Positions 21,394-58,018 of a stretch of 64,000 bases of DNA are shown here, piece by piece. The first letter of the stretch is position 1. Every line of letters begins with the position of its first letter. Under the pieces are notes generated by a model that did no database searches, had not been told where the DNA came from, and saw only the letters and a program-made list of their open reading frames with translations. The stretch is taken from the NCBI GenBank assembly GCA_013306675.1, contig JABLUY010000056.1, positions 62,001 to 126,000 on the forward strand, written 5' to 3'. A program made the translations under genes and the position numbers. The stretch comes from Thraustochytrium sp. TN22 (lineage: Eukaryota; Sar; Bigyra; Thraustochytrida; Thraustochytriidae).

Positions 21394-24300
21394 TCAAAGT
21401 GGCGGCTCGAGCAAAAGGGCGACGGAGCGAATGGTCCAGTGGTCGGGTGCCTGGGCAGTTGGAAGGTCCACCATCATGACAAAGTTGGAGGAACGGCCCG
21501 TGGTGGCCAATACGCCCCGGCGGTCCGGCGTTCTATAGAGCGGGCACGCGTAGGTAGACGTGGGCGTGGGCGTGGGCGTGGACGTGACCGTGCCGGCAAC
21601 GGCGGCATCCTCGGACCCCATCACAGCTGGAAGCAGGTGCAGCGGCGGCGCAAGGGAGAAGAGCTCCTTGGGGCGGCACTCTGCGAGAACTCGCTCGTCC
21701 TTGTCCCAGATGGCGCCCTGCATGAAGATGCCATCGACCAACGCGCCGTCCGCGGGGCGGTTGACAGGGCGCTGGTCGGACGAAAGTACCCCAAAGGAGA
21801 AGTCAATGCTGTCAATGGGGAGCTTGTGGTGACGCGCAAAGTTCTGAAGAATAGCCGTGTTGAAGGACTGCGTAAAGTAAATGCCGCCAATCCAAAAGAC
21901 CACGGGCGGACCCTCCTGCAGCCAGCGGTCGAAGAAGGTGAGGCGCTCGAAGAGGTCGCCAATGTAGCCCGGCAGGTCGCGCAGCGAGGGGTAGGAGCGC
22001 GCGGTCCAGAGGGCCGGCACAACGCCATCGAGCAGCGCGTAAAACACCTGCTCCAGGTCGGCGCTCATGACGACCAAGCCCTGAGTCGCCTTGATAAGGT
22101 TGTGCAGACTCTCGCGGATGACATCGGTAAGGACGTTGTAACGGCCCAGTTCCTGCGTCAGCACCGTGTTCATGCTCTCCTCGTAGACCACCGGGTAGCG
22201 CGCCTGCGCAGCCTCCACATCGAAGCGCGGCGGAAGCCGCTCCAAGATGGACTCCGCAAGCTCCTCGACAGCCTGCTCGGGGGATCCGGCCTCGCCCCCG
22301 CCGCTTCCGCTTCCCCCGCTGCTGCGCGGCTGCGTGCTCTGGACGCAGCGAAAGAGCTCGGCAGTCTCATTCTGTGCGCGCGTGATGTCTGCGTTGGCGT
22401 GCAGCCCGAAGACCTCTGGAGTGGCCTCGGCTGGGAGGTCGCGGAGCAGCTCTACGTACGCGCCGTGCGAGGTGGGCCGCGGGACGCGGTAGGCACCGCA
22501 CTCAGAGAGCGCAAAGTCGTCCTTGAGGCCGACTTCGGCGTTCATGTACGCCTTGAGCACGGCCGTGAGCAGGCGGCGGTCCTGGTCGTCCGTGACGCGA
22601 CCGCCGTAGTTGCAGGCGCCAATCGTGTAGGTGAGCGCCTTGAAGGGAAGCGGCCCGCCCTCGGAGTCCTCAACGAACATGCGTAGATGCCGCACCGAAA
22701 TGCGCAGGTCGTCCTCGTTGAAGCCATATGGCACGTTCCAGCCGAGCGCGCCGAAGCTGCGGCGCTCCTGAATGACGGCGTGGAAGAAGCAGAGCCCAAA
22801 GACCAACCGCTTAAACACCGGCACCATACCGAGCGAGCAGGTCTCGAAGAACTCCGGGTCCGAGATCGGGTCCGTGAAGAACGACCGCACCAGATTTGCT
22901 CGCAAGCCCTTGGGCGGCTCGTTGGTCATCTTGACACCGCCCTGCAGAATCGACACCGGCATCTTGTCCGACGGGTACGAGGTCAGCCACAGGCGAAAGG
23001 ACTGCGCCGCGGCCGGTGCCGCCGCTGCCGCCCCCGCTTCGCCCGTTTGCTGCTCCTGGTGCAGGTACGCACGCGCAACGCGCTCCATAATCTGTTCCAG
23101 CGTCGGCATCCAGCTTGGGTACAGGTGGCAGTTCTGAAGAACGACCCAAGAGCCGGACTTCATGCCGCGCGCGATCATGCGCTCGGCGATCACGCCCTGG
23201 CCCTGGCCGAGCGAGAGCTGCGCCAGCGACATGCCCTGCGCGGTGGCCAGTTTCGTGAGCGCCTGGATCGGGTCGGCGCCCGGCGACAGCACAAAGATGA
23301 GTGGCGTGTGCGGGCGCGAGTCGCGCCAACAAGCCTCCAGGTCAAAGCGTGGCGGTTCCACAAAACGCGAGCCCATTTTGTCCTCCACGAAGGCCGTCAC
23401 GGCCGGCACAACGCGGTCCGGTCGCAGGCAGCGCAGCGCGCAGAGCCGCAACAGGCCATCGCTCGCGTACGGCTCCGGGAAGCCCGCGAAGACTTCAGCG
23501 CGCGGGTCGCCAAAGATCTCCCTCCACACGCCCTCATCCTGGCAGAACGCCGTCGCGCGCTCCTCGACGCTCGCTGCACGCCCGGCGGTCACCTCTGCGT
23601 CCCACAAAAGGTCCAGCGCTGCCCAACACGTGTCGGGCAGCCAGGCGGAGCATGGGTTCTCCGGTGGCTCGGAGGCGGCCGTCGGGCCAGAGACGAGAAA
23701 GCGAAAGAGCGCAGGGGCAGCGGCGTCCTCGCCGTTGATTCGAATGCACAGAAGAAAGGAGAAGAGCAGCTTGTCCTTCTCGAAGAGAGAGCGGCAGATG
23801 TTCCGGTACAGTGCGTCGGTAAAGTACGCGGAGAGTTCGTTGAGGCGGCGGTCGATGGCGGAGACAGCCTCGCCGGGCTCGTCGGCGGTCGACGTCGACG
23901 TCGACGTTGCCGCCGCCGCCGCCGCCGCTGCGCTGCCCTCGCGCGCCGACCCGTCGATGCTCGCCACGTACAGGTCGACAAACCAGTTGAGCGAGTACTG
24001 GTACATGGGATCGACAAAGGCGAGATCGCTGCAGCAAAAGAACATGGTGGCGGCGCGCCGCGCCACCGGCACGTAGCTCTGGCGCGCCAGGTCGATCTGC
24101 TCCGAAGTGGCCTCGGCCACCTGCTGCTTCTCAGAGATCTCCTTGGCTACAGCCTGCGACTTGCTCAGCACCTCGATGGCGGAGGCGTCCTCGAGGATGT
24201 TGCCCTCGGATGAGCTCATCACCTGGAGGATCTTGTCCTCGATCTCGCGTAGCATGGCCTGGTTTTTCGAGGTCTCCACGATGAGCTCGCTCTTGGCGCG

Positions 24301-27300
24301 CTCCAGGTCGGGGCGCTCGCGCGCCACGACGATGCCAAGCATCTGGTCCTCGAGACCCACCGGCGTGATCATGAAATTAAGCAAGGTCACCTTGACGCTG
24401 ACCTCAGGCAGATAGTGCGGGTTTCGCAGCTTGGTCGTCATGAAGAAGCGGAAGCTCTCCGCGTACTCGACGGTGGCGTCGCCCAGCTTGATGCAGGAGA
24501 CGCCGCCCTTCTTGAAGACCTGCTTGAGCAGGAGCGGCTCAAGCGCCGCCGGCAGCGTCTCCTCGATATTTTCCAGCAGCACAGGCTTGCCGAACTGCAC
24601 GGCGTTCTCCATGGTACGCAAAAAGTTCGCGTCGCTCAGCTTGCACACCTGTAAATCGTGCTCGGCCTCCATGTTACGCACCCACTTGTTCGCCTGGCCT
24701 TGCGGGTCAATCATAAGCGGCCATCGGCGCGAGTTGCTGAGAATGATGCCATTCTCGATGCTATATTCATCCACGGGGAGGCCCTGCATGGTCCAGGTAC
24801 GGATGCGGACCGGGTCGCCCAGCGTCTGCACGAGGTTCATCTCCTCCGTGCTGGAACACGGAATCCGCATCGCCATGGCCTCGCCGACCCAGGCCGCCGT
24901 GATCTCGCGCCGGTACGTGACGGTAAAGGGCCCGAGGTAGGCGACCATGGCGGAGCACACCAACACGTTGCCAATGAGCTTGCCCAGGAGCTCGCGCAAG
25001 CGGACGGCCTCCTCGGACCAGCGCGCCTTCTCGCCGCCCAGGCCGGAGATGAGGCGCTCGGCGCGGTCAAGCTTTGCGGCGCAGTCGCTGACTTGCTGCT
25101 CCAAGTCGCGCTTGCGCGCCTTGCATTGGTCGAGCTGCTGCGCAAGGCCGGCGACGCGCGCCTCGATCTTGGCCAGCTCAGCCTGCTTGGCGCGCAGGCC
25201 GGCCATGACGGTCTCGAACTCGTTCTCGGCCTCAGCCAGGGCCGCGCGCTTGGGAGCCACCACCTTGGCGACGCTGTCATACTGCACCATGGCGCGGATC
25301 CAGCTGCATAGGCCGCAGGCGGCGCGAGAGGCCTTCTTGATGTTCTCCGGGTCGAAGTCCGGGTTCTCCACATAGCTCGTGGCGCGCTGGATGATCTTTG
25401 GGTCGATGTTGTCCTTGTCGTAGTCGATCAGGCTGGAGAGCAGCTTTGGGTCCGAGAGCAGCTGCTTCTTAGCCGGCTCCCAGTAGTCGTTGATCTTCTT
25501 GGACGCGTCGTTCGGGTCCTTGACCTTGACGGGCTTCACGCCCATCATGATGCAGAGCGCTTCCATGACCAGCTTGACGCCGTCCGGCGGCGCCTTCATG
25601 GCCTTCACCTCGGTGAGGTCATTCTTGGAAAGCGTGTTAAGCGCGGCGATGGCCGACTCCAGCACCGGCATGGCCTCGGCCAGGTCTGCCTCGCACTCAT
25701 CCTTGATGCGCTTCGCGCTCTGCGCCTTCTCGTTCGCGACCGCCTCCTCGCTCTTGACCACAATGGCAATTTTGTCTGCCTCCGCTTGCTCCTTCTCCAC
25801 GGCCGACATCATCTCTTCGGTCTGCGCCGTGGTGCGGACCAGTACGGGCTGCAGCTCTTGCAGCTCCTTTTGCATACCCTGCACCGAGTCCTCGGTGAAC
25901 TGCAGCTTTTCTAAACCTACCTCGTAGCGCCGCAGCGTCTGCGCCACCTGCTGCCGCTTCACCGCCAGCATGGTTTTGAAGGTCGTGATGAGCTCCAGGT
26001 ACGAGGTGGGCGTCACGTAGTACGGCCGCCGCAGCTCGTCCATAAAGCGGCTCGCATATGTGCTGGTGTTCACGTGGAAGCGCTGGCACATGGCCACGCA
26101 CTTGGCCTTGAGCATGCCGTCACTGTCCGAGCCGAGGTCACCGTCGTCCAGGAAGCGCTCCGCCACGGAGGTGAGCGCGTCCTGCGGCCATTCCGAGAAC
26201 CAGTCGATCACGCAGCAGTTGACGAGCGAGGGGAACTGGCGAATGCGCGACCGAAAGGCGTCGCCAATCGGGCTGAACGCCAGCACCACGTGCAGTCGCG
26301 TGCGTACACGATCCACAACAAAGGCGTAGAGCGCCTCGGGCGTGTCCGCCTTGCGGCGCTCCGCCTTGGCGGCTGGCCGGGCCAGCTCGCAGAGCTCCGC
26401 CTTCTCGTCCGGCGCCAGCAGGTTCGGCACCTCGCCCGCGTTGAGCAGGCTGTTCATGTCCTCCACAAAGGACTCTTGCTTGATCTGCGCGTCGCTGAGC
26501 AGGAAGACAGTCTCCTGGCCGCGCCCGCCCGCCATGGCCAAAACTCGGCGAAGGTCGGCGTGCCAGTCGGCCGTGGCGTAGTTGCGACTCAACTCGATCT
26601 GGAAGACCTCATGACCGCGGATCGAGGCGGCAAGCCGCGTCAGCGACTGCCGTCCAGACCCACCCACGCCCACGAGGAGCGCGTTGCCGCCGGGGATGCC
26701 AATGATGCGGCAGATGCGCACGGTGTGCTCGATTGCATACAGGAACATGACGAGGTCCATGGGCTTGGCCGTCAGAGCATTGTAGGCCTCGAGCTTTTGC
26801 TCGCAGAGCGTCTTGAGCGCGCCCAGATCGACCACCTGCTCATACGCCGTCGAGTGCAGGCTACCAAACAGCACGCGCCGTGCCGTGGTCCAGTTCGCCT
26901 CGCTCTCGCGGAACGAGCCAGATGCCGAGACCATGCCGGTGGACTCGTCCGTCAAGTGCGAAAAGACCTCCGCAAAGGTCTTGCCAAAGTGCGTCTTCAT
27001 CGCCGGGCTCATCATACCGGCAACCAGCTTGTCCCGGTCCACGGCGTCCACGAGGCGGTCCCCGAAGACGCGCAGGCACTCGTGCGCCCAGAGGCGCGCC
27101 ATGGTGGACGCTACCTCGTCCGGGGAGCGGCTGCCGCCGCCCCCGCTGCCGCCATCGGTACCACCCGCGCGAAAGAGCGTCATGCCCTGGACGACGCGGC
27201 TCACGTCGCGCAGGTTGAAGAGGTAGTGCGAGCGGGACGGAGTGGGCAAGAGCTCCTTGACGCTGCGCTGATACACCTCCATGGTGGCTTCGACGGCGCT

Positions 27301-30300
27301 CTGGCCAGCACGCAGCACACTCGTTCCGCGGCAGCCCTGACTGGTGACCAGGTTCCAGCGCATGAGTGCAGAGAAGATACGCGTCATGGAGGCGTCGTCG
27401 AACTCCGTGACGCCGATCATGTGGAAGTGGCGTATGAAGCGCGGCGAGACTTTGTTGCGGCCGCCGCCGGGTGGGCCCATAGCAGCCACGAAGAAGGTGT
27501 CCACGACGTTGCGGAAGCTGAGGTCCTTGAGGTCGTACCAGCCGCCGTACTTCATGCCCTGCCGCAGCAGCTCCAGCGGCGGCTGCGCGCCATATGTTTC
27601 GGGCTGCGGCATGTTGACGTCGTCGAGGAAGACGACGCAGGTGCGGCCGAGCGCCGGCCCGTAAACGCCCTTGCGCCGGCGGTCCAGACTCGCGTCGATG
27701 ATGCCCTGCACCTGCGTGGCCGTGGTCTGCGCCGAGAAGCCCAGCGAGAGCACCTTGTAGACGTTCGCATCGAGCTCCTCCAGGAGGTAGCGCTGCGTGT
27801 ACGCGGACTTACCCGTGCCGGTGGGGCCGACGAAGAGCACGGACTTGCGTCGCTGCACGGCAAGGCGGAGCAGCGCCGTATAGCGCACCGTGTCCTTGGT
27901 CGGCACGATGATGGACGAGTAGGAGGCCGTCGCTGGGAATTCCGGGTCGGCCTCCAACGTCGAGGCCCACGCGCGCCACTCGCAGAGGCTTCGCGCCTCA
28001 TCGATCTGCACAAAGTAATCATAGACCAGGCCGTCCGCGGGCAGCGCCAGGGCCAGGGTGCGGCCGCCAGAGGCGGCGGTTGACGACACGAGGGAGCGCA
28101 CGAAGCCATCAAAGGCGTGACGGCCGGCCGCGTCGGCAGTGCCGCCGACGGACCAAACGAGCGCGAAGGCGGCGAGCGGTTCGAGCCAGGCATCCGCTAC
28201 GGGCGAGGCGGCGACGTCGTGGAGCAGCGTCTCAAGCAGCTGCGTCATGGAGCGCACGAGCATGAGGTCCGAGGAGGGCGCCAGCTCGGTAATGTTCTTG
28301 CGCACAAAGTAGAGCGCAGGGTCCACGAGCCATTCGAAGAGATCGCGCACGACTGCACGGCCGTCGTTGGAGAGCCTATCACAGCGACGCAGCCAGGCGT
28401 CAACGAGCGGCCGCCATCCGAGCTTCTCCGGTTCCATGTACACCATGCCGCAGCGCGAGACGGTGGCGGGCGAGGCGACGGCCAGGTCGATGGGCTCGAA
28501 GATCATGTTCATGTACTCGGACATGGCAATGATCTCGCCGCTCATGAGGCAGAGCTTCTTGTTGTCGTCGAGCACAGTGTTGAGGTTCTCGATCCAGACA
28601 GCGTCAACTGGGCCGTCAAAGAGGATCCACTTGCGTCGGCCATCGGCCGACTTGCTCGCGTCGCGGAAGGTCTTGGCCAGCACGCCGTCGGACCACTCAT
28701 GTGAGACAAGGTCGAAGCATCCGTAGAGCTGCTGCATGGTGACTGCCTTGGGGTTGATCTGCACGACATCGGTGGCCAGCTCGTGCTCGCCGAGCTTGCA
28801 AGGCATTTGCTGGCGCTCGCAGAGCGTGGTGAGCGCGCGCTGGAGCACACGCCAGCTCATGGTCTTGCCGGCCAGCGGCGGGCCCACCACCATGAGGCCA
28901 TGGCGCACGACGAGCATCTCGTAGAGCTGCACAACCTTTTCCATGAAAAAGGGCACCGGTTCGATGGCGATGTCCTCGTCCGCGCAGGCTGCCTCGGACG
29001 CGCTCATCATGTGCACGTAGTCTGGGTCCGGCAGCGTGACGCCCGGGAAAAGGTCGGAGATGATCCCTTTGAAGAGCGGGACGTCCTGGCTGAGAAATTT
29101 GGCCAGGTTGACGTCGCAGATGGAGCGCAACACAATGACGGCCTCGTCCTCGTCCGGAAACTGTCGCTTCAGCGCGCCGGCGGCCGTGAGCACGCTAATG
29201 ACGGCGCGCATGCCGTAATCGTAGTGGTCTTGCGAGGAGAGCTGCTCGCTGCAGAGCTTGTAGGTGGTGACGATTTTTTTGGCGAGGGCGCGTGAGTCGG
29301 CGTAGCCATAGCTAAAGAGGATGATCTCCGCAATCATGCTATAGTCCGGCACCATCATCGCCACCGTCCGAAAGAGCGCCTTGAGGTTATCCGGCAGCTC
29401 AGAGCGGCCCGCGTAGCCCGGATTCATGGTGATGAAGACATTGGCGGTCCAGCGCAGCTGAATCTCCGTCCCCTCGAACTCGAAGCTGTGCACGCGGCGC
29501 GCGATCGCGCCTTGGATGCTGGAGATCTGTTGCGCGATGACCGAGAGCACCTCGAGCTCGATACGATTGAACTCATCGAAGCACGCCCAGGCGCCGCTCG
29601 ACGCGAGGCCCTTGAAGAACTTGGCCATGGCCAGGTAGTCGAGGCCATCGGAGCAATTGAAGACGACACACTGGCGCGCGAGCGCTTTGGCCAGGTCCTT
29701 GACGGTCTCCGTCTTGCCCGTGCCTGCGGGTCCTTCCGGCGCTCCACCGTACTGCAGGTGCAGCGCGCCCATGAGCGTGCGATAGCAGCGGTCGGTGAGC
29801 GGCGTGATGACTAGACGTGAGGAGTTTCCCAGATACTCGTAGCCGTACTCCAGCGAGGACGCGATGATTTTAACATTGAGCGTGCTGTCCTCCCAGTAGT
29901 AGCGTAGCTGGCTGGTCCAGTCAAAGTCCTGCGGCGAGCTGACGCCAGCATCCGCCAGCTGCTTGACCACATCGCGTGCGTGAACGTCAATGACCGCGAG
30001 AGCCGACAGCGTGGCGCGCTCCAGCTTGCTGAGCTCGCCGCGCACAAGCGTGACGAGGGACGCGAGCTGCGCGCTGAGCGTCTCTTCGTACGAGACGAGG
30101 CCGGCCTCGCCACGACCGCGCAGCTCGGCCTCCACTTCCTGCGTCCAAAACGCAGAGCCCACAGCGAGAACGACCTGGCCGGGCCAGTCGAGGATCCAGC
30201 GGCCGCGCGACTTGCTCGGGTAGTCGGTGATGGCCTCCTTGATGAAGTGCTTGACGCTGCGGCACATCTCCTCCTCGAGCTGCAGCAGCCAAACCTCGAC

Positions 30301-33300
30301 GGCGCCGCTCGCTTCGTGCGGGGCCACCTCCTGCGTGAGCTCCACGCTCTCACCCTGCGCGCTCATCATATGCGTGATCACAGGCTGGGCAGCCGCCGTG
30401 GCCGGGGAGGAGCTCGTGGTCGCCTCGTCCAGGGCGCTGTCACGGAAGCGCAGCGACTTGATGCCCTCGAAGCACTTGCTCAGGAAAGGCTGCACGCGGG
30501 TCGGGTCTTTGGTCTCGGCGAGAATTTCGAGCAGCTCGTCGTTGGACAGAAAGAAGAAACGCGAGAAGTAGAGACGCTTCGTCTCCAGGTACGAGGCCAG
30601 CCCCTTGTTGATCTCTTCAAGCAGCTCGTGGAGCTCGTTGAACTGGTCGAGCAGGTGGTCGACCTTTGCGATCATGGTAACCTTGGGCGCCGAGTGTACG
30701 AGCTCCATTATCTCGCGCCACGTCTTGCTGACCTGCTGAAACTTGAGTCCCTCCTGCGGCATCTGGCGCATGATGTCGTCAGACGCAAAGATCGGGTCCA
30801 GGTAGAGCCAAGCGGCTTGAACCTTGACCCAGGCGTCGATGAGGTCGCGCGTATAGACCAGAAAGGTCTCCCAATCGGCCATCTTGGCCTCCATGAATTT
30901 GCAATAGGGCGAGCCGCGCATGGTCTGCGTCTTGACGAGGTGGTCGTCCAGCAGGGTCTGCAGCTCGTCCACGTTGGCGCCCTGGAGTATGTAGGAACCG
31001 GAGTCCTTGTAGGCCTGCATGGCATACTCGAGCGGCGCCCACTCAGCGACCATCTTGGCGTGCGCGTTCTCGATGGAGTGCTCCTTGGAGGCGCCCTCGG
31101 AGATGGCCTCGAGCGCCTCGAGGTGGGCGCCAACCTGAAGCTCGAGCAGACGAGCCAGCGTGGTGCTGCCGTCCGGCACGAGGGGGAAGCCGACCAGGTC
31201 GGAGATGCGCGTCCAGTGGCGCTGGCGCAGGCCATCATTGGAGATCACGGCGAGCAGCGGGAGATCCTTGCGAAAGTCAGTGAGTTTGTCCTTGATGAGG
31301 CGCGCGCACTCGGCCACGGCCACGCTACCGCCGGCCTCGAAGCTCTCTGCGAGCTGATGTGCGGATCGGAACATGTCTGAGACCTCCTTTTCGACCTGCT
31401 CGCCATCAAGCTCGAAGATGACGCCGTGGTTCCAGCGTTGGAACTGCTTTTGGAAGCGATCCGCGAGCCGCCAAAAGGTCTCATACGGCTGGAGTGCCGC
31501 GTCGTGCTGCGCCAGCGCCTTGAACTCAGTGGAGGCCAGGCCGAGGCGGTCCTCCTCCTCGTGCAGGAGGTCAGCGCGGCGCGCGGCCGCCACCAGGAGC
31601 TCGCGCGCCTCCTCGGTGGCGCGCAGCTGCGCCTTGGTGTAGCGAATGTCGCCGTTCTCCTTGAGGCGTGCCACGACCTTTTCGACACCGTCGAGCTCTT
31701 TGCCAAAGCCGTCGCAGTCGAGCCTGAACTGGTCCTCGAGCTTGGCGCGCGCGTCGCGTAGCTGAGCGCCAGCGGCCTCCACGACGCGGTCGATCTTGCG
31801 CGCCCAGGACAGCGTGATACTGAGCGGGCGCAAGAAGTCCGCCTCCACCTGCATCTCGTGGCGGAACAAGAAGTGCAGGCGGGCCTCGATAGCCGCAACG
31901 TCTGCGAGCAGTGCGTCGCAGCCGCGGCCCTGGAAGTCTCGCAGAAATGTTTCGGCGGCGATGAGCTCATGCGAGTCGCGCGGCACCTCCGCGAGGCGCT
32001 CGGCCGTCTCGCTGAAGGCCTTGCACACCTCGAGGTTGCGCTGGATGCCGTCCTGCACGATGAAGCGGAGGACGCGTAGGCGCTGCGCCTCGGATTCCGA
32101 CTCGATGAGCTCGTACAGAGAGGCCGTCTCGATGGTCTGCACGCCGGCGACCACAGCCGGGCGCGCTTCGTGCGCGGCACGCGAGCGTAGGCGCTCGATC
32201 TCGTCCAGGTCGGCCTGCACTTCCTCCAGGCTGCGCTGTGAGGTGAGCGCCGCCTGCAGGCGTGGCCGCGCGTTGAAGACAGCTTCGAAGCCCGTGAAGC
32301 GCGCCACGGCGTCGCGCGCCAGCGCGTCGCTGGCGTGCAGCACCGCCTCAATATCGAGCCGGATGCGCGTTACGGCGTCCTCGGCCGGGGAGATGTCGAG
32401 GACGTAGATGCCCTGTTGCGCGAGCGCCGTAGCGAGGCCCGTGGCCAGGCCAGCCGCCGGACCCGCGCCGGCCTCGGCGTCAGCGTCGGCGGGCGAGGAA
32501 GAGGGTGCCGACACCAGCGCGCCGCTGCCTTCGTCGCCGTCGAGGAACTCGAGGTTGAGCCCGAGCCCCTTGCGCTCGATGCGCACCACCCGGTTGAGGC
32601 AGGTAGCGACGACCTGGATGATTTGCTCGACGCCGGCGACGACGGCCTCATGCGGAGTCTCGAGGACGATCTCGCGCGGCGTGACAGGCACGACGGTAGG
32701 CCCGCCGTCGGCGTCCTCGGAGACAACGAGACGGTTCTTCAGGGCGGAACGGAGCGGCTCGGTGAGGTCCGACAGGAACGGGTGCGGCGATGGCGCGAGC
32801 TGGCCCAGGCCGAAGCGCAGGAAGAAGGCGCGCAGACGCCTGAGCGAGCGCAGCACGAGCGAGCGCAGCTGGCGCGCCATGAGCGTCGCGGCGCTCTCAA
32901 AAAGTGCCTGCAGCATGTCCTGGGAAAACTCACAGAGGCGCGCACCGTATCCCGCGAGCGGCGAGGCAGTCGGCTTGGCGGCATCCGCGAAGATGCGCAA
33001 GACCTCCGGATACCACTCGTGGAGGAGCTGGTCGCGAGTCTTGATGGCGTGCGCGATCTGCAACTGGACAAAGTCCTCGAGGAGAGGCGGCTGCCAGCCG
33101 CGCTGGAGCGCGTCCTCGTCCGTTGCGGGCACATCGATGAGGGAAAGGTGCGCGTGGTCCTGCCAGAGCGCCAAGAGCTCGCGCACGAGCGGATTGACGA
33201 GGGTGAGGCGCTTGGCGAGCGTGACTCTGGCGGCGCGCATCGATTCGCGCCAGGGCCGCGGCGCCTCCGCCAGCATGGCGCGGCTGGGCGCGCCAAGGCG

Positions 33301-35133
33301 GCAGCTGGCCGGCGTGTACGGCATGCGAAGACGCACGCGCTGCTGTGCGTCCTGCAGCACATAGTCGAGCGCGGCGCGACGCGCGGCGCGGTAGTACTCG
33401 GTCTCCACCTCGCTGGTGAGCTGCACGAGGAGCTCCTGCACGACGGCGATGCGCGCCGGATCGGAGGCAAATTCGCCGGAGGGAGTCGGGAGCAGGTCCG
33501 TCACGCGCACGAGCCATTCCGCGCGCACGGGCGCCAACACGGCAGTGTCAACGCCGTTCTCTGCGTACCACATGTACTGCTGGGTGATACGCGTTTCGTC
33601 GTCATCGTCGTCAATGTCCTCGGCCTCGCCTCCTCTGTGGTGATCAGCGGGCGAGTCAACCTCAGGTCTCTGCGCGTCCAGGCTGCCCCTGCCTAGGTGC
33701 GTGAGTCCCTTGCCGAGCCTGCGACGTTCGTGACGGCCGGGCGCCTCGCGCGCGTCGTGGGCTTCGTCTCGGGCACTGAAGACCCGACGTGCATCCGGGA
33801 CGGCCCGCGGCGAACACTGCGGTAGGGTGAGTGGGTCGCGCTCTACGGCACCCAGTGCTTGAGCCCGGCGTGCCTCCAGCTCCAGGCGGTCGCGGACCTG
33901 CTGCCGCGTCTCCTTGGAGCCGGGCATTGCCCCCATGAGACTCGCACGAGGCGGTGCGGCCGACGTGGCGGCGGCGGCGGCGGCGGTGGCGGCCGTGGCG
34001 GCGGCGACGGCGGCGGCAGACCATGCGTGCAGGCTGTGAAGGTCAAGGTCTCGCGCAGCAGGCGAGTAATAAACGGCGATGCGATCCGGCAGCTTGCGAT
34101 CCGCCTCGCCTTCAGGCGCATAGACGGCCGCCCGTGTCCGTGCGTACCGATTGAGCAGCGTCGGGTGCGCCTGCTCACTACGAATACTCTGGTTGAGCTC
34201 TTGCAAGCTCTGCTCGCGCTTGATACTTGCGAGTCTCGAAGTGCCTGGGGGCCGCAATTGGTGTGTGGCTTCGCTGAAGCCTCGTGAGCTATTGAATCGG
34301 TGCGAGGAATCCCCCCCTTGCGTGCGCCAGCTCGGGGCTCGCATCAGCATGGCACCACCTGGGTCGAGCGAGGTTGAGCTTAAACTGAGGCGCCGCATCG
34401 TGGCTTGGCGCGCCCCAAGGCGCTCCACGGCGGGCGACTCGTAGGCGGCGTCAACGCAGGTACCGTCCCGGTACCACGTGCAGAGTACGCTGTCGTGGCG
34501 GCCCGTGGCAATGAGGCGCTGGCCCGTTCGGTGAGCACGCGGAGACGCTGGCTTGCCCGCGCTGGCACTGGACGGCGACGATGGCGGGCGCGGCTCGCAA
34601 AGCTTCTGCAACGGCGATGTCGGCAGGCCGCCGCCCGGCGCGAATTGCAGCTGCAAGGTGCCGTCGCGTGCCACGAGCTTGCCGCAGCCAATATCAAGCG
34701 TGATGGCGGCTGCTCCAGTCCGTCGACCGGCCCGCGCCGCCTTGCCAAAGCCGTTCATGACGGCGCGCAGCACGACCGCAATAAGTTCCACTTCGAGCGG
34801 CGCGCCATTCAGCCAGCTCGGCGCCACGGCACGCAGGTTCACGCGCCACGCACGCACGCTGTCCTCCGCCCTCGGAAGCTCAGCGGCCGACTGCACGTCG
34901 AAGTTCTCCGCGAAGCCCTCCCCCAGAAGGAAGGTCGGCACCACCGCGCCCAGCTTGTACTTGCGGAACTGCACAACGCCCACCTCCGGCACCACGAACG
35001 ACATGCGCTCCTGGCTCAGCGCCAGCGTCCAGTTGCACAGCCCGTCCCACACGCCCTCCACGGTCGCCTCGGGCACGTCCACCTGCAGCTGCGCGCGCGC
35101 CAGCGCTACCGCATCGAGCTCCTGCGTCTCCAT
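21394..35133 (-). CDS. Axonemal inner-arm-type dynein heavy chain with N-terminal CCDC81-type HU domains
   Basis: A 4,579-residue microtubule motor in one uninterrupted exon. The motor is complete: AAA1 P-loop GPAGTGKTET (about 1800) with Walker B ACFDEFNRIE; AAA2 GPPLAGKT (about 2080); AAA3 GPTGTGKS (about 2430); AAA4 GVGGSGRQS (about 2820); then stalk, AAA5/6 and the C-terminal domain ending in SVALLLEPPL. The tail begins at about residue 545 with NGVDTAVLAPV, a pattern of the single-headed DNAH3/7/12 inner-arm group. Before it lie two small domains, residues about 22-75 (VWDGLCNW...VPEVGVVQF) and 105-167 (LNG...ITLDIGCGKLVARDG...QFAPG), which resemble the paired HU-like domains of CCDC81. 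A Ser/Arg-rich linker with DIDDDDDE joins them to the tail. ATG at 35133 chosen; 35262 is in frame upstream. Confidence 0.93.
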   Translation of the reverse strand: METQELDAVALARAQLQVDVPEATVEGVWDGLCNWTLALSQERMSFVVPEVGVVQFRKYKLGAVVPTFLLGEGFAENFDVQSAAELPRAEDSVRAWRVNLRAVAPSWLNGAPLEVELIAVVLRAVMNGFGKAARAGRRTGAAAITLDIGCGKLVARDGTLQLQFAPGGGLPTSPLQKLCEPRPPSSPSSASAGKPASPRAHRTGQRLIATGRHDSVLCTWYRDGTCVDAAYESPAVERLGARQATMRRLSLSSTSLDPGGAMLMRAPSWRTQGGDSSHRFNSSRGFSEATHQLRPPGTSRLASIKREQSLQELNQSIRSEQAHPTLLNRYARTRAAVYAPEGEADRKLPDRIAVYYSPAARDLDLHSLHAWSAAAVAAATAATAAAAAATSAAPPRASLMGAMPGSKETRQQVRDRLELEARRAQALGAVERDPLTLPQCSPRAVPDARRVFSARDEAHDAREAPGRHERRRLGKGLTHLGRGSLDAQRPEVDSPADHHRGGEAEDIDDDDDETRITQQYMWYAENGVDTAVLAPVRAEWLVRVTDLLPTPSGEFASDPARIAVVQELLVQLTSEVETEYYRAARRAALDYVLQDAQQRVRLRMPYTPASCRLGAPSRAMLAEAPRPWRESMRAARVTLAKRLTLVNPLVRELLALWQDHAHLSLIDVPATDEDALQRGWQPPLLEDFVQLQIAHAIKTRDQLLHEWYPEVLRIFADAAKPTASPLAGYGARLCEFSQDMLQALFESAATLMARQLRSLVLRSLRRLRAFFLRFGLGQLAPSPHPFLSDLTEPLRSALKNRLVVSEDADGGPTVVPVTPREIVLETPHEAVVAGVEQIIQVVATCLNRVVRIERKGLGLNLEFLDGDEGSGALVSAPSSSPADADAEAGAGPAAGLATGLATALAQQGIYVLDISPAEDAVTRIRLDIEAVLHASDALARDAVARFTGFEAVFNARPRLQAALTSQRSLEEVQADLDEIERLRSRAAHEARPAVVAGVQTIETASLYELIESESEAQRLRVLRFIVQDGIQRNLEVCKAFSETAERLAEVPRDSHELIAAETFLRDFQGRGCDALLADVAAIEARLHFLFRHEMQVEADFLRPLSITLSWARKIDRVVEAAGAQLRDARAKLEDQFRLDCDGFGKELDGVEKVVARLKENGDIRYTKAQLRATEEARELLVAAARRADLLHEEEDRLGLASTEFKALAQHDAALQPYETFWRLADRFQKQFQRWNHGVIFELDGEQVEKEVSDMFRSAHQLAESFEAGGSVAVAECARLIKDKLTDFRKDLPLLAVISNDGLRQRHWTRISDLVGFPLVPDGSTTLARLLELQVGAHLEALEAISEGASKEHSIENAHAKMVAEWAPLEYAMQAYKDSGSYILQGANVDELQTLLDDHLVKTQTMRGSPYCKFMEAKMADWETFLVYTRDLIDAWVKVQAAWLYLDPIFASDDIMRQMPQEGLKFQQVSKTWREIMELVHSAPKVTMIAKVDHLLDQFNELHELLEEINKGLASYLETKRLYFSRFFFLSNDELLEILAETKDPTRVQPFLSKCFEGIKSLRFRDSALDEATTSSSPATAAAQPVITHMMSAQGESVELTQEVAPHEASGAVEVWLLQLEEEMCRSVKHFIKEAITDYPSKSRGRWILDWPGQVVLAVGSAFWTQEVEAELRGRGEAGLVSYEETLSAQLASLVTLVRGELSKLERATLSALAVIDVHARDVVKQLADAGVSSPQDFDWTSQLRYYWEDSTLNVKIIASSLEYGYEYLGNSSRLVITPLTDRCYRTLMGALHLQYGGAPEGPAGTGKTETVKDLAKALARQCVVFNCSDGLDYLAMAKFFKGLASSGAWACFDEFNRIELEVLSVIAQQISSIQGAIARRVHSFEFEGTEIQLRWTANVFITMNPGYAGRSELPDNLKALFRTVAMMVPDYSMIAEIILFSYGYADSRALAKKIVTTYKLCSEQLSSQDHYDYGMRAVISVLTAAGALKRQFPDEDEAVIVLRSICDVNLAKFLSQDVPLFKGIISDLFPGVTLPDPDYVHMMSASEAACADEDIAIEPVPFFMEKVVQLYEMLVVRHGLMVVGPPLAGKTMSWRVLQRALTTLCERQQMPCKLGEHELATDVVQINPKAVTMQQLYGCFDLVSHEWSDGVLAKTFRDASKSADGRRKWILFDGPVDAVWIENLNTVLDDNKKLCLMSGEIIAMSEYMNMIFEPIDLAVASPATVSRCGMVYMEPEKLGWRPLVDAWLRRCDRLSNDGRAVVRDLFEWLVDPALYFVRKNITELAPSSDLMLVRSMTQLLETLLHDVAASPVADAWLEPLAAFALVWSVGGTADAAGRHAFDGFVRSLVSSTAASGGRTLALALPADGLVYDYFVQIDEARSLCEWRAWASTLEADPEFPATASYSSIIVPTKDTVRYTALLRLAVQRRKSVLFVGPTGTGKSAYTQRYLLEELDANVYKVLSLGFSAQTTATQVQGIIDASLDRRRKGVYGPALGRTCVVFLDDVNMPQPETYGAQPPLELLRQGMKYGGWYDLKDLSFRNVVDTFFVAAMGPPGGGRNKVSPRFIRHFHMIGVTEFDDASMTRIFSALMRWNLVTSQGCRGTSVLRAGQSAVEATMEVYQRSVKELLPTPSRSHYLFNLRDVSRVVQGMTLFRAGGTDGGSGGGGSRSPDEVASTMARLWAHECLRVFGDRLVDAVDRDKLVAGMMSPAMKTHFGKTFAEVFSHLTDESTGMVSASGSFRESEANWTTARRVLFGSLHSTAYEQVVDLGALKTLCEQKLEAYNALTAKPMDLVMFLYAIEHTVRICRIIGIPGGNALLVGVGGSGRQSLTRLAASIRGHEVFQIELSRNYATADWHADLRRVLAMAGGRGQETVFLLSDAQIKQESFVEDMNSLLNAGEVPNLLAPDEKAELCELARPAAKAERRKADTPEALYAFVVDRVRTRLHVVLAFSPIGDAFRSRIRQFPSLVNCCVIDWFSEWPQDALTSVAERFLDDGDLGSDSDGMLKAKCVAMCQRFHVNTSTYASRFMDELRRPYYVTPTSYLELITTFKTMLAVKRQQVAQTLRRYEVGLEKLQFTEDSVQGMQKELQELQPVLVRTTAQTEEMMSAVEKEQAEADKIAIVVKSEEAVANEKAQSAKRIKDECEADLAEAMPVLESAIAALNTLSKNDLTEVKAMKAPPDGVKLVMEALCIMMGVKPVKVKDPNDASKKINDYWEPAKKQLLSDPKLLSSLIDYDKDNIDPKIIQRATSYVENPDFDPENIKKASRAACGLCSWIRAMVQYDSVAKVVAPKRAALAEAENEFETVMAGLRAKQAELAKIEARVAGLAQQLDQCKARKRDLEQQVSDCAAKLDRAERLISGLGGEKARWSEEAVRLRELLGKLIGNVLVCSAMVAYLGPFTVTYRREITAAWVGEAMAMRIPCSSTEEMNLVQTLGDPVRIRTWTMQGLPVDEYSIENGIILSNSRRWPLMIDPQGQANKWVRNMEAEHDLQVCKLSDANFLRTMENAVQFGKPVLLENIEETLPAALEPLLLKQVFKKGGVSCIKLGDATVEYAESFRFFMTTKLRNPHYLPEVSVKVTLLNFMITPVGLEDQMLGIVVARERPDLERAKSELIVETSKNQAMLREIEDKILQVMSSSEGNILEDASAIEVLSKSQAVAKEISEKQQVAEATSEQIDLARQSYVPVARRAATMFFCCSDLAFVDPMYQYSLNWFVDLYVASIDGSAREGSAAAAAAAATSTSTSTADEPGEAVSAIDRRLNELSAYFTDALYRNICRSLFEKDKLLFSFLLCIRINGEDAAAPALFRFLVSGPTAASEPPENPCSAWLPDTCWAALDLLWDAEVTAGRAASVEERATAFCQDEGVWREIFGDPRAEVFAGFPEPYASDGLLRLCALRCLRPDRVVPAVTAFVEDKMGSRFVEPPRFDLEACWRDSRPHTPLIFVLSPGADPIQALTKLATAQGMSLAQLSLGQGQGVIAERMIARGMKSGSWVVLQNCHLYPSWMPTLEQIMERVARAYLHQEQQTGEAGAAAAAPAAAQSFRLWLTSYPSDKMPVSILQGGVKMTNEPPKGLRANLVRSFFTDPISDPEFFETCSLGMVPVFKRLVFGLCFFHAVIQERRSFGALGWNVPYGFNEDDLRISVRHLRMFVEDSEGGPLPFKALTYTIGACNYGGRVTDDQDRRLLTAVLKAYMNAEVGLKDDFALSECGAYRVPRPTSHGAYVELLRDLPAEATPEVFGLHANADITRAQNETAELFRCVQSTQPRSSGGSGSGGGEAGSPEQAVEELAESILERLPPRFDVEAAQARYPVVYEESMNTVLTQELGRYNVLTDVIRESLHNLIKATQGLVVMSADLEQVFYALLDGVVPALWTARSYPSLRDLPGYIGDLFERLTFFDRWLQEGPPVVFWIGGIYFTQSFNTAILQNFARHHKLPIDSIDFSFGVLSSDQRPVNRPADGALVDGIFMQGAIWDKDERVLAECRPKELFSLAPPLHLLPAVMGSEDAAVAGTVTSTPTPTPTSTYACPLYRTPDRRGVLATTGRSSNFVMMVDLPTAQAPDHWTIRSVALLLEPPL

Positions 35134-35691
35134 CCTGCCTGCTTCCGCGCACGCCCGCGCGCAGCCGCAGCAGCGGGCGTTGCACTTGTGCCGGCCCGCT
35201 GGGCTCGTGCGCGCGCGCCGCGCAGACCGCAGACCGCAGAGCGTGGCGAGAGCCCAGCCCACCCAGCCTGAGCCGAGCAGCGTCCGAGTCCCGCCGTGCC
35301 ACGCCGGGCCGCGGACTCTGCGTCAACGGCCACATGTGAGTTTTTCCCATCAGCCGACTCGGACTCGGAAGTCGGAGTCGCTGCCGGCGGCTTGCTTCCA
35401 CCACCACTGCATGACTCCGTGACTCCGTTTGAGTTTGACACTGCACTGTGAGTCCGTGCGTGGATCGTGACTCCTCGTCACGTTGGCGGTCAGGTCGAAG
35501 AGCATCTATGTGCTTACGCCGGCTCCGTCTCACTGACAGTGAGTGGCAGCTGAGCATGGCCAGCTGCTGCCGCTCCCTGCTTGATGCCTGTCCATTTGCG
35601 TCAATTATGCCCGGTTGCGTGCAAAGCAAAAGGATGAAAAACTCTACGAACTTCAGCTCTTGCCGCCTCAGCGCACTGGTACCTCTAAAAC
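35134..35691. other. Intergenic between two minus-strand genes, no gene supported
   Basis: Upstream of the dynein start and downstream... of the gene order boundary with the ABC1 protein stop at 35692. It contains several GACTCGGACTC-type pentamer/hexamer variants (about 35355-35385) but no gene. Presumed dynein promoter lies here. Confidence 0.4.
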
Positions 35692-36170
35692 TTAGAATAC
35701 ACCCTGGAAGATTTCTGTGACGCCGGCATTGGTGACCTGCAGGTGCTTGAAGATGAGGCCGAGGAGGTCACGAGAGAGAGCCCGGTCAAGCGTGAGGCAG
35801 TTGACGAGGACGACGACAGCGAGCTTGCGCGCAGGGACGACCACGAGGAGGGCACCACCAAAGGCGTGCTGCAGGAGGACATGGAGGCCTGTGTCGGGCA
35901 TGATGAAGATCTGAAAGCCAAAAGAAAAAGGCATCTTGCCGAAGAGCGGACCAGTCTCGGAGCGCAGCGGCTTGCGCAGGAGCTTGGCGAGGAGGTTCTG
36001 GGATGCGTGATGCGTGAAGAAGGAGGCGGCGAAGTGGGCCAGGCCGCGCGCGGTGCCAAAGCCTCCAAAGGATGGTACGATACTCTCGCGAATCGCGGGT
36101 GCGTTGACACAGCACGGGTCGAGCAGCGTGCCAGGCGGAAGGCGCACACCAGGAGGCAGCAGGCCACCAG

Positions 36171-36203
<33 letters not shown>

Positions 36204-36340
36204 TGCCATCGTCGTCATCTTCGCGGACGTTATCAGGCTCTTTGGCCTTGGCCTCATCCTGTGCTGCAGCGCGAATGTCGAGCGTGGCACGAGGGCGCGA
36301 GAGCACGGTCTTCTTCTTCTCCTTAGCCTCTTGTTCCGAC

Positions 36341-36415
<75 letters not shown>

Positions 36416-39400
36416 GAGAGGGCGAGACCTGCAGCAACTGTGGAGGCATTTTCAGTTCCAGATACGGGGCTGCTGGCTGCCGGTGGCCCCGCTGCTGCGT
36501 CCATCGCCATGCCGCGCAGGAACTTTGCAAAGCCATTGCTGACCGCAGCGAAACGACTGGCCTCTGGGGCGTCCGCAGCGGAGAGGTAAAGCGCAGGAAC
36601 TTGGGAGGCGTCCGCAGCGCGACGAATCTCCTGGCGCACGATGTCGGCAATTGGCGCATCAAGAACAGCCTCTAAGAGGCCGGCGAGGACATAGCCGAAG
36701 GAGAAGACTGAGTAGACGGCGCGCGTGTCGTCGGAGGCGAGAGCTCGGCGGCGGTGGCGGCGGTGGCGACCGGCGACCTCAAAGCGGGCCTTGAGCGCCT
36801 TGTAGTCGCGCAGAGTGGTGGCCACGGAGGTGCCAGGTACATGGTCGGCGAGCTGCGGCGCATACGTGAGGAGCTCGCCGATCGTGAGGTCCGTGTCCGC
36901 GAAGGCTGTCCAGTGCGAGGCGACCGTGTCAGCGAGCGCGAGGCGGCCCTGGTCGAGAAGGCGAAGCAGCGCGATCAGGGGAAGGACACGCGTCATGTCC
37001 ATGAGCGGGAAAAGCGTTTCCGTGGACACCTTGAGCGGGGAAAGCTCGGCCTCTGCGCCGAGCGCGGCGTTGACGAGGACCCGGCCGTTAGAGACGACAG
37101 CGACCTGCGCCCCGACGAAGGAGTCCGCAACAAAACCCTCGGAGGGAAGTGTGGCCATGTCGTCGGAGGCGGCGATCTGGGCGTCGCGGAGCGCGTCGCG
37201 CACCTTGGCGTCGAGCGTGAGCTCGCGTGCGGAGAGGCCCGCGGAGGGCGTGGTGGGCGGCGCGGGGAGAGCAGGCATCGTAGCCCCGCGCGCCGAGTCA
37301 GCGGCGCGGTCGAGCTCCTCGTACATGATGCCGAGCTTGGCGTAGTCGGCCATCATGTCAAGGTAGCCAATTGGCGCGTCGAGCGTGGTACAGAGGCCGC
37401 GGATGAGGCCGAGCACACGAAAGAGGAAGATGAGGGAGTCCGGGAAGCTGGCAAAGAAGCGGCCCTCCTTGGTCGGGTCCTGAGCCAGATCCGTCTTCCG
37501 CTGCGCCTTGCGGCGCTGGCGAAAGGCGGCCTGCTGGCGGCGCTGCGAGGCGCGGTCGCCCGTGTCGCGCAGCAAGAACGCGAAGAACTCCAGGTCGCGC
37601 TCCGGGTGCGCCTCAGACTGAGAGTTCTTGTAGCCGACGGCAGCAATGGCGTCGGCCAGCGCCGAAACGGAAATGTTGGAGAGCGCGGCGACGAGGCGGC
37701 AGTAGCCGAGGCGCTGGTGCGGCTCGAGGTCCATCACCATGCCAAAGTCGAGCAGAACGGGTCGCGCCGTGCCGTCGTCCGAGATGGCCACCATGAGGTT
37801 GCCTGGATGCGGGTCGGCGCTGGTGAGACCGTCAACGAAGATCATGCTGCCGTAGGCTTGCACGACCCGCGTGACGAGCGCGGAGCGGTCCACACCAAAC
37901 AGCGCGAGCTGCTCAAGGTCGGTGATCTTGAAGCCGTGCAGAAAGGTCATGCAAAAGGCGCGCTGGCCAACAAGCCCGTGCACGGGCCGCGGCACGAGCA
38001 CGAGGCTGCCAGCGCACTCTCGGTCGAGGTAATCGTGGTCGTTGTCGGCCAGGAGGCCGGCGCGGCGCAAGTTGGCGCGCACGGTGCGCAAGTTATCGGC
38101 CTCGACGCGAAAGTCCAGCTCCTTGAGCATCTCCTTCTCCCAGGCGCGTAGCAGCGTCTTGGCAACCTCAAAGCGAGGGTTGAGCCAGGCGATGAGCGCG
38201 ATGATGCGGCGGAAGGCCACGACATCGGACCGCATGATGTCCTCGATGCCCTCATGCTGCACTTTGACGGCGACTTGCAGCGGCGCGCTGAGCAGCTCGG
38301 GTTTACCATCCGGGCCGATGCGGCCGGTGGAGCAGGTGCCGGCGCGCAGCACGGCGCGGTGCACCTGGGCGATGCTGGCGCTCGCCATGGGCTCGAGGTC
38401 GAAGGACTCAAAGAGTGCGTCCATCTTGACGCCGAACTGGTTCTCCACGCAGCGCTCCACGTACTGGCGGCGGTCGGCAGGGAGATCGTCCTGCAGCTTA
38501 GCCAACACGGATCCCCAGCTGGGCGGGATGATGTCGGCGCGACTGCCGATGTACTGGCCAAACTTGACGAAGACGCTGCGCAAGTGCAGGATCTCGTTGC
38601 AGGCAAAGGGTGCCATGATGAGGTCGAGACGCTCAAAAACCGCCGTGTACGCCGAGACGCTCATGCGCATCACGCGGACGCAGACCAGGTGGACGGAGTA
38701 GTAGCTCAAGATGATGACGCCGGCCGTGGAGTAAATGCGGAGCAAGCGCCCAAAGAAGTAGCTGAGCAGGTTCATGATGAGCGTGCATGTGAGCATGGCA
38801 CTGAGCAGCACGGGACGCGCGCGGGCAAGGTCCACGACATAGGGCGCCCATAGCGCGCTCGACAGCAGCGGCGTGAGCGAGACGCCGTGGGACCAGGCCG
38901 CGACGCCCAAGGCGCACGCCTGCGAGAGCGGGCGCGTACAGTAGAGCGCGATGAGGGCGAGGCTGAGTATGCCTTGCACCGGGTGCGCGGCGCCGTGACC
39001 CTGCAGCGCACCCGAGGTGAGCGCACTCCAGGCGTAGGTGAGCCCGGCGATGAGGGGCAGGCGTGGCAGGGTGATGGCCAGCAGGCGCGCGAGGCGTCCT
39101 TCGACGCCGACGCGCGCCTGCTCGCGCACGGTCTCTTCGAGCGCACGGATGCGCAAGAGCAGCTTGCGCGAGGTCTGCAGCACGGCCAGGGCGGATGCCT
39201 CAACCGTGGCGCCAATGGGCCGCGCTTGCAGGGCGCGCACGTGCTCGATGAGGCGCTGATATGGGAGCACAATGGTCTTGGGCTGGGCCGGCTGCGACTT
39301 GTGCTCGGCCGGGGCCGCAGTCTCCGTCGTAGGGCGCGGGCGCACCGCCTGCACATGCTCCTGCCAGCAAGCGGTACAGACGCGGTGGCCTCGCAGCTGG

Positions 39401-40041
39401 TGGTTGGAGCAATTCGCGCAAATGGCGGCGCCGCAGCGGCGACAGTGGTGCTCGCGCGTCCAAAAGGAGAAGCGCGAGAGGCAGAGCTTGCAGCGCTCGG
39501 CGTTGTTCTCCCACTCCGGGTGGCTGGAGTCGAGAATGAAGGTGAGCTTGTTCCACTCTTCGCGCGCCGCGCGCGTCTCGCGGCCCTGGCTGAGCGAGGC
39601 AAGGTGGGAGCCGAGGTTCTCCGGGCCGATTTCGGCGAGCGCGGTCTCGCCGGCGCGGCGCATGGGGCCTTGCAGGTTGCGCAGCACCGTGTAGGTGCCG
39701 GAGTAGCGCACCTTGCCCCTGAGCAGCGCCATGGCAGGTTTCATGTCGCCATTGGCCAGCTTGGCGATCGTGCGCATGTCCGTCTCCACGCGGCATTGCA
39801 CCTTGGCGCCGGCGTCCACGCCCTCCACGCCCTCGCGCACGCAGCCGACGCCGTCCTGCACAAGCACCAGCCAGCGGCCGCCATGGGCGCCCGCCACGAC
39901 CAGCTCCACCGCCGTGTCCGCTAGGCCGCCCGACGCGCCGCCGCCGCGCAGCTCGCGGTCCAGGTGCCGGAACACCGTCTCCAGCTGTGCGCGCCGCGCT
40001 GCGGCCTCCTCGTCCGCCGACGCCATCTCGGACTCGGGCAC
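35692..40041 (-). CDS. SCP2-FYVE-TM-ABC1 kinase-like-beta-lactamase-like multidomain protein
   Basis: A 1,449-residue chain with five modules. Residues about 30-140 resemble an SCP2 lipid-binding domain (KLANGDMKPAMALLRGKVRYSG). Residues about 178-230 are a FYVE-type zinc finger with all eight Cys and REHHCRRCG. Hydrophobic spans follow (about 330-460). The ABC1/UbiB atypical kinase domain (about 480-860) keeps KFGQ (KxGQ), the Ala/Ser-rich SIAQVH loop, VAVK, DPHPGNL and DFGMV, so it looks intact. The C-terminal part (about 935-1440) resembles a class C beta-lactamase fold but has D1015-M-T-R1018 where SxxK is expected; a polyQ tract (about 1209-1237) interrupts it. ABC1-beta-lactamase fusions are known in plants (for example At5g24810). 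The FYVE domain suggests endosomal PI3P membranes rather than mitochondria or plastids. Confidence 0.88.
36333..36415 (-). repeat. CAG (polyQ) repeat inside the ABC1 protein gene
   Basis: About 27 CTG units on the plus strand, coding polyglutamine on the minus strand, within the beta-lactamase-like region. One CTG unit is replaced by TTG. Likely variable in length. Confidence 0.92.
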
Positions 40042-57367: not shown

Positions 57368-58018
57368 TCATGAAGAAGCCATTGGCCGCACCGTGAGTGT
57401 CTGAAGCGAACCAGGCTCGCCAATGACCGAAGTCCAGCCACTCGGGAGCAAATCCCACGCAGAGCCAAACACGTGCACTGTCTTGCTCAAAGTACCAGAA
57501 GAGTCCTCCACCACCCCAACATCGTGCGCCCAAAGAAGAATGCCACCCCGCATGTTGGCAAATTTGTGGTCGGGGTGCTCCTTTTGCAGCTTCGCAGCAG
57601 CGACTCCCGAACGATAGCCCACGGTGCAGTACAGGACGACTGCGACGAGCACGAGAATGCAATGGTGAGAGATCCTGGTCGCAAATCAAGGCGAACTCGC
57701 AGCCAAGACAAACCTACTCTCGGCATCCGCAGGCACCTCGTCTACCTTGAGGTCCGCCTGCGCGATGCTACCGGGCACGTGCGACACCTGCTCGCCCTTG
57801 GGCCGGCAGTCCACCAGCACTGGGCGCACTCCGCCCTCCGCCTCCTGCGCCGCGCGCAACTCCGTCGGATCTGCATCGCGCACGCCGTCGAAGGCCTTGG
57901 CCTTGTAGCTCGCAAACATCTTCAAGATGCGCTCACGCCTCTCTGCGTCTGTCTGCGGCTCTGCGTCGAAAAGCGTGTTCGTCGCCAGCTTGTTCGCCAG
58001 GCTCATGAGCATCTGCAT
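57368..58018 (-). CDS. Single-domain rhodanese-like protein, two exons
   Basis: Exons in transcription order: 58018-57718 and 57639-57368; 190 residues. Two separate frames each carry half of a rhodanese domain. The first half ends VLVDCRPKGEQVSHVPGSI...EVPADAE; the second begins VLYCTVGYRSGVAAAKL with the catalytic Cys in CTVGYRSG. A 78-nt intron with donor GTAGGT and acceptor CGCAG joins them in frame, giving DAEIVLYCTVGYRSG, as in intact rhodaneses. The active-site loop CTVGYR is the six-residue type seen in sulfurtransferases. The last third (WDLLPSGWTSVIG) is less typical. Sulfurtransferase activity is likely; substrate unknown. The N-terminus lacks an obvious targeting signal. Confidence 0.82.

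Follow-up and report, generated by a model that had tools for sequence, protein, structure and literature searches.

Does the dynein heavy chain encoded in this stretch of Thraustochytrium sp. TN22 DNA (64,000 nucleotides, hereafter the window) begin with a pair of CCDC81-type HU domains, and what might such a front end do for a motor? A sequence-only reading of the window had placed two HU units, a long linker, and a DNAH3/7/12-like heavy chain in one frame. In this study, we aimed to evaluate the coding frame, the identity of its front end, the continuity between front end and motor, and the role that the combination may have. The features of the locus are given below; residue numbers are counted from the ATG at 35133 unless labelled 'frame', and P0002 and P0003 are two related dynein heavy chains.

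21394..35133, - strand: whole coding frame (HU pair, linker, and dynein heavy chain), conserved in P0002 and P0003
34879..35112, - strand: candidate first HU unit (HU1), residues 8-85; HU_euk_1 match in P0002 and P0003, not in the window's own sequence
34639..34857, - strand: candidate second HU unit (HU2), residues 93-165; HU_euk_2 match in the window, P0002, and P0003
33526..34617, - strand: linker, residues 173-536, Ser/Arg-rich in parts; three-way alignment
34450..34500, - strand: conserved linker island RHDSVLCTWYRDGTCVD, residues 212-228; three-way alignment and structure prediction
31504..33525, - strand: dynein tail before DHC_N2, residues 537-1210; homology to the paralogue L035 starts at 537
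30232..31503, - strand: DHC_N2 (linker and tail region 2); Pfam E 3e-129
28861..29847, - strand: AAA1 (AAA_6), with Walker A GPAGTGKT at residue 1801; Pfam E 2e-154
24898..25929, - strand: microtubule-binding stalk (MT); Pfam E 3.5e-49
21409..22374, - strand: dynein C-terminal domain; Pfam E 3.6e-101

The motor part is a complete heavy chain. DHC_N2, the AAA1-AAA6 regions, the MT stalk, and the dynein C-terminal domain were found by Pfam in this order, all above their cut-offs and with E-values down to 2e-154. The P-loop of AAA1 is intact, and P-loop-like motifs are also present in AAA2-AAA4. The best PDB match was DNAH7, covering frame residues 1063-4618, with a bit score of 3655, followed by DNAH3 (3508), DNAH12 (3429), DNAH1 (2990), and DNAH6 (2584). 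By these PDB bit scores, the DNAH3/7/12-like class proposed from the sequence is probable. The tail, DHC_N2, the six AAA regions, the stalk, and the C-terminal domain are those of DNAH7/DNAH3/DNAH12-type chains; in contrast to such chains, the window protein has about 540 additional N-terminal residues, which include the HU pair. By BLASTp, the tail matched the own-genome paralogue L035 at residues 537-657 (E 0.001) and 742-1198 (E 5e-07).

The frame is open without interruption for 4622 codons (window 21394-35262, - strand), as had been described, and its first ATG (35133, residue 44 of the frame) lies directly before HU1, where the sequence-only reading had put it. The product from this ATG comprises 4579 aa plus the stop, and all the HU motifs quoted earlier are present in the translation. 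The linker was said to run without a stop for about 380 residues; it has no stop, but its length is about 365 residues, from the end of HU2 (~172) to the start of dynein homology at 537. An open frame by itself carries little weight here because the DNA is GC-rich and a frame of 669 aa lies on the opposite strand inside the dynein gene. The GC1/GC2/GC3 values of HU1 (0.74/0.38/0.94) are of the coding type, and those of the DNA upstream of the ATG are 0.56/0.66/0.70. Since the HU-linker-tail stretch is kept in the same order in two other dynein heavy chains and shows coding-type GC, it was taken as real. A chance frame is ruled out by the conservation in these two dyneins. The frame upstream of the dynein gene (window 35692-40041, - strand, 1449 aa) combines domains of the ABC1 kinase-like and beta-lactamase types with a FYVE finger; matches to SCP2 and DDHD in the same frame were below cut-off.

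The candidate HU units were characterised by alignment and secondary structure prediction. HU1 consists of two helices followed by three strands, which include the invariant hairpin QFRKYK.GAVVP.F (predicted elements H8-16, H22-40, E45-48, E52-58, E64-71, and H72-76). HU2 consists of a strand, a long helix, and three strands (E94-99, H115-139, E144-147, E152-156, and E159-163); GCGKL and F.PGGGLP, right behind HU2, are invariant. The whole window protein gave no HU family in Pfam at E<=1. When the front end was cut out, HU-CCDC81_euk_2 was matched at E 0.007-0.016 (15.7-16.8 bits; cut-off 26.1), and HU-CCDC81_euk_1 gave no match. The profile check proposed for the front end therefore came out in part: HU2 is weakly recognised, but HU1 is not, and the cut-off is missed. 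Both families were matched in the expected order in P0002 (HU_euk_1, E 0.00013; HU_euk_2, E 0.091) and in P0003 (E 0.033 and 0.012, respectively). The curated cut-off of 26.1 was missed everywhere, the best scores being 22.4 bits for HU1 (P0002) and 16.8 bits for HU2 (window).

In a single-sequence search of the PDB with the window front end, the top row was a molecule named CCDC81 (E 0.28). When the three front ends were combined into a profile, the best match was CCDC81 of 9e78, a Leishmania doublet (E 0.017); one further row, unrelated, appeared at E 1, and no dynein chain was matched at E<=10. Sequence search is insensitive in the CCDC81 family, because neither the HU region of the CCDC81-like protein of this genome (no PDB chain at E<=10) nor its alignment profile found the CCDC81 of the PDB. 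Foldseek was run with a model built from the dynein sequences alone. All of its top five matches came from doublet-microtubule entries, with E<=0.001 for two; 8snb_1K, 8v3l_A, 8g2z_0T, and 9e2g_2N are known by their entry titles, and 9e78 alone carries the name CCDC81. The proposed structure prediction thus points to doublet-microtubule chains, but through a low-confidence model.

Relatives of the front end were sought among 2330 dynein-length candidates from a protein collection of 5.8 billion. Two matches were obtained at E<=10, namely P0002 (a dynein heavy chain of 4528 aa, E 3.3e-52) and P0003 (a Hondaea fermentalgiana dynein heavy chain of 5305 aa, E 1.9e-46). Their front ends are about 50% identical to that of the window. 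Hondaea belongs to the Stramenopiles, Labyrinthulomycetes, Thraustochytrida, in keeping with the stramenopile setting named in the sequence-only reading, and its motor regions are 80% identical to those of the window. P0002, an independent model, has the HU pair at its very start and extends as far as the dynein C-terminus. In the P0003 model, a mannosidase and a rhodanese-like part (residues 1-759) have been wrongly merged in front of the HU part. Residues 555-748 of P0003, on the rhodanese side, have a 58% match at window 57392-58018 (- strand), about 22 kb upstream of the dynein gene, so that gene order is shared with Hondaea only in part. A tail-region search for other dyneins returned only Hondaea among the matches listed (1291 candidates). 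This search is uninformative on the breadth of the fusion because even P0002 was missed.

In the three-way alignment, conservation runs unbroken from HU1 via HU2 and the linker islands into the tail. Within residues 1-200, 28-52% of each 50-residue block is identical in all three sequences, and the 3197 columns of the motor reach 74%. In the linker, conserved islands alternate with variable stretches (9-48% or, at its widest, 9-52% per 50-residue block). The island RHDSVLCTWYRDGTCVD is predicted to form a short beta hairpin and has two invariant cysteines; another conserved island (within window 33526-34617, - strand) is LGAVERDPLTLPQCSPR. Linker block 311-420 had a faint match to L035 (E 0.1, below significance), and shared linker motifs are not claimed. 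All three sequences carry HU1, HU2, linker, and tail, in agreement with the in-frame fusion that had been suggested. As this conservation is continuous in three sequences, we conclude that the HU pair and the motor are very likely translated as a single chimaeric polypeptide.

The rest of the genome was searched for comparable front ends. A DHC_N2 search gave at least 22 matches, corresponding to the window gene and at least 19 other loci, the excess being split matches or the window gene's own. Nineteen other heavy-chain loci were scanned in six frames, up to 6.5 kb upstream of DHC_N2, with the front-end and CCDC81 HU profiles; at these listed loci no HU pair exceeded the HMMER inclusion threshold (best E 0.4 and 0.55), in a scan that could miss an N-terminus lying more than 6.5 kb upstream or split by introns. 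Over the 19 loci scanned, this negative result rules out the HU pair as a trait common to heavy chains. L035, whose DHC_N2 score comes closest to that of the window gene, resembles DNAH7 in its PDB matches (8glv_Kg of a Chlamydomonas entry first, then DNAH7), and no HU pair was detected in it.

Genome searches with HU_euk_1 and HU_euk_2 missed the window locus and returned two others, on contigs C147 and C230. The first (L001, 274-2010, - strand) encodes a 578-aa CCDC81-like protein in which both HU families are matched. Two relatives of this protein were found among 2874 candidates, P0004 (Hondaea) and P0005, whose HU regions are 64% and 63% identical to its own, respectively. In the second (L002, 1-2082, - strand), a single frame of 1389 aa encodes an HU-CCDC81 pair with several EF hands behind it. 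A single-sequence search with the HU pair of the window dynein found neither protein. Like the window dynein, both have tandem HU_euk_1/HU_euk_2 at the N-terminus; unlike it, neither is a dynein, the pair being followed by a charged-residue-rich region in the former and by EF hands in the latter. The window protein is not an orthologue of CCDC81: its HU pair is attached to a motor, and a CCDC81-like protein is encoded elsewhere in the genome by a gene of its own. The CCDC81 HU pair can thus be transferred from protein to protein as a module, since a single genome has it on a dynein, on an EF-hand protein, and on a CCDC81-like protein.

Inner-arm dyneins attach to the A-tubule near the inner junction. 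Published work places CCDC81 relatives at the doublet inner junction, one of them anchored on the A-tubule. There, Tetrahymena IJ34, a CCDC81 homologue, is described as stabilising CFAP52 (PMC10105768), CCDC81b is presented as an axonemal inner-junction microtubule inner protein (MIP), and a figure legend mentions inner junction holes (PMC7617938). Leishmania CCDC81 (9e78), IJ34, and CCDC81b have a tandem HU pair whose order and spacing are those of the window by profile and fold. They are separate proteins without a motor, in contrast to the window pair, which is fused and stays under the Pfam cut-offs. Because CCDC81 relatives are published at the inner junction, the idea of docking on the doublet becomes more specific than it was. 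On balance, we favour a chimaera between a DNAH3/7/12-type inner-arm heavy chain and a CCDC81-type HU pair that acts as a built-in dock. By analogy, it is plausible that the protein is axonemal and that the HU pair docks the dynein on the doublet. The N-terminus of a DNAH3/7/12-type chain would have gained the tandem pair, joined through the partly conserved linker of about 365 residues. Like the CCDC81 relatives of doublets, the pair may attach close to the A-B inner junction, either to the wall of the A-tubule or to a protein of the junction. The invariant basic hairpin QFRKYK of HU1 would suit an acidic tubulin surface. The linker would give reach and tether one inner-arm motor to the HU-bound site, and the tail of the dynein would be fixed at a set place by the HU module.

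The HU pair could also be real and fused but serve recruitment or assembly, through the basal body, the transition zone, or an assembly factor. CCDC81 has a link to the centrosome. IJ34 is present in the basal-body core as well as the axoneme (PMC11961760). However, the closest structural matches of the front-end model are axonemal doublet entries, and CCDC81b is reported solely from the axoneme inner junction. We consider a role in recruitment or assembly unlikely, and docking on the doublet is preferred.

Much less probable is that the front end has a lineage-specific fold that merely resembles an HU pair. Every curated HU cut-off of Pfam is missed and the structure models are weak, as would suit such a fold. 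Yet family order in Pfam, profile-profile alignment, and fold search, each drawing on large libraries, agree on the CCDC81 family. By hhalign, the front end was aligned to three thraustochytrid-type CCDC81-like proteins at E 2.5e-4 and 1.2e-4 over 146-147 columns, co-linear across both HU units, with a stated probability of 43-55%. The CCDC81 profile was also aligned, as a control, to 49 overlapping 180-residue windows taken along the alignment of the three dyneins and to the front end in reverse. The front end ranked first of the 49 with a score of 34.2; the next was an overlapping window (20.3), the others scored 18.6 or less, and the reversed front end scored 16.6. Neither the other stretches of the three dyneins nor the reversed front end point to CCDC81. 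A chance HU match is ruled out: of the 49 windows and the reversed front end, only the front end was aligned over both HU units. Of the earlier proposal of a paired CCDC81-type HU front end, remote homology is retained, from Pfam order in the relatives, hhalign, and fold, but no Pfam score lies over the cut-off. At this level, the front end is supported as a CCDC81-type HU pair.

Least probable is that two adjacent genes, one for the HU pair and one for a dynein starting in or after the linker, share an open frame, as such frames come cheaply in GC-rich DNA and the Hondaea model is itself over-merged (mannosidase and rhodanese-like part), but the linker islands are kept in frame in three sequences without a break between HU2 and tail, and the independent model P0002 spans the HU pair to the dynein C-terminus. 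Accordingly, we are highly confident that a CCDC81-type HU pair forms the front end and belongs to the same polypeptide as the motor.

Beyond docking, the motor may, with low probability, be a MIP as well; its HU pair would then, like IJ34 or CCDC81, lie on the luminal side at the A-B inner junction. The linker would pass the inner junction, and one inner-arm dynein would be wired directly to the internal MIP lattice; if so, the MIP wiring would set or sense dynein position. A known motor class is combined here with a known doublet-microtubule module, and no report of an HU-dynein heavy chain fusion was found in the PMC literature searched; a paper from the Aravind group, which reportedly deals with HU/IHF clades and the centrosome, may mention such architectures. 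It has long been asked what puts each inner-arm dynein in its proper position within the axonemal repeat. A heavy chain joined covalently to a doublet-microtubule module would offer a natural experiment on this question, since the binding site of such an attached dock can be sought directly.
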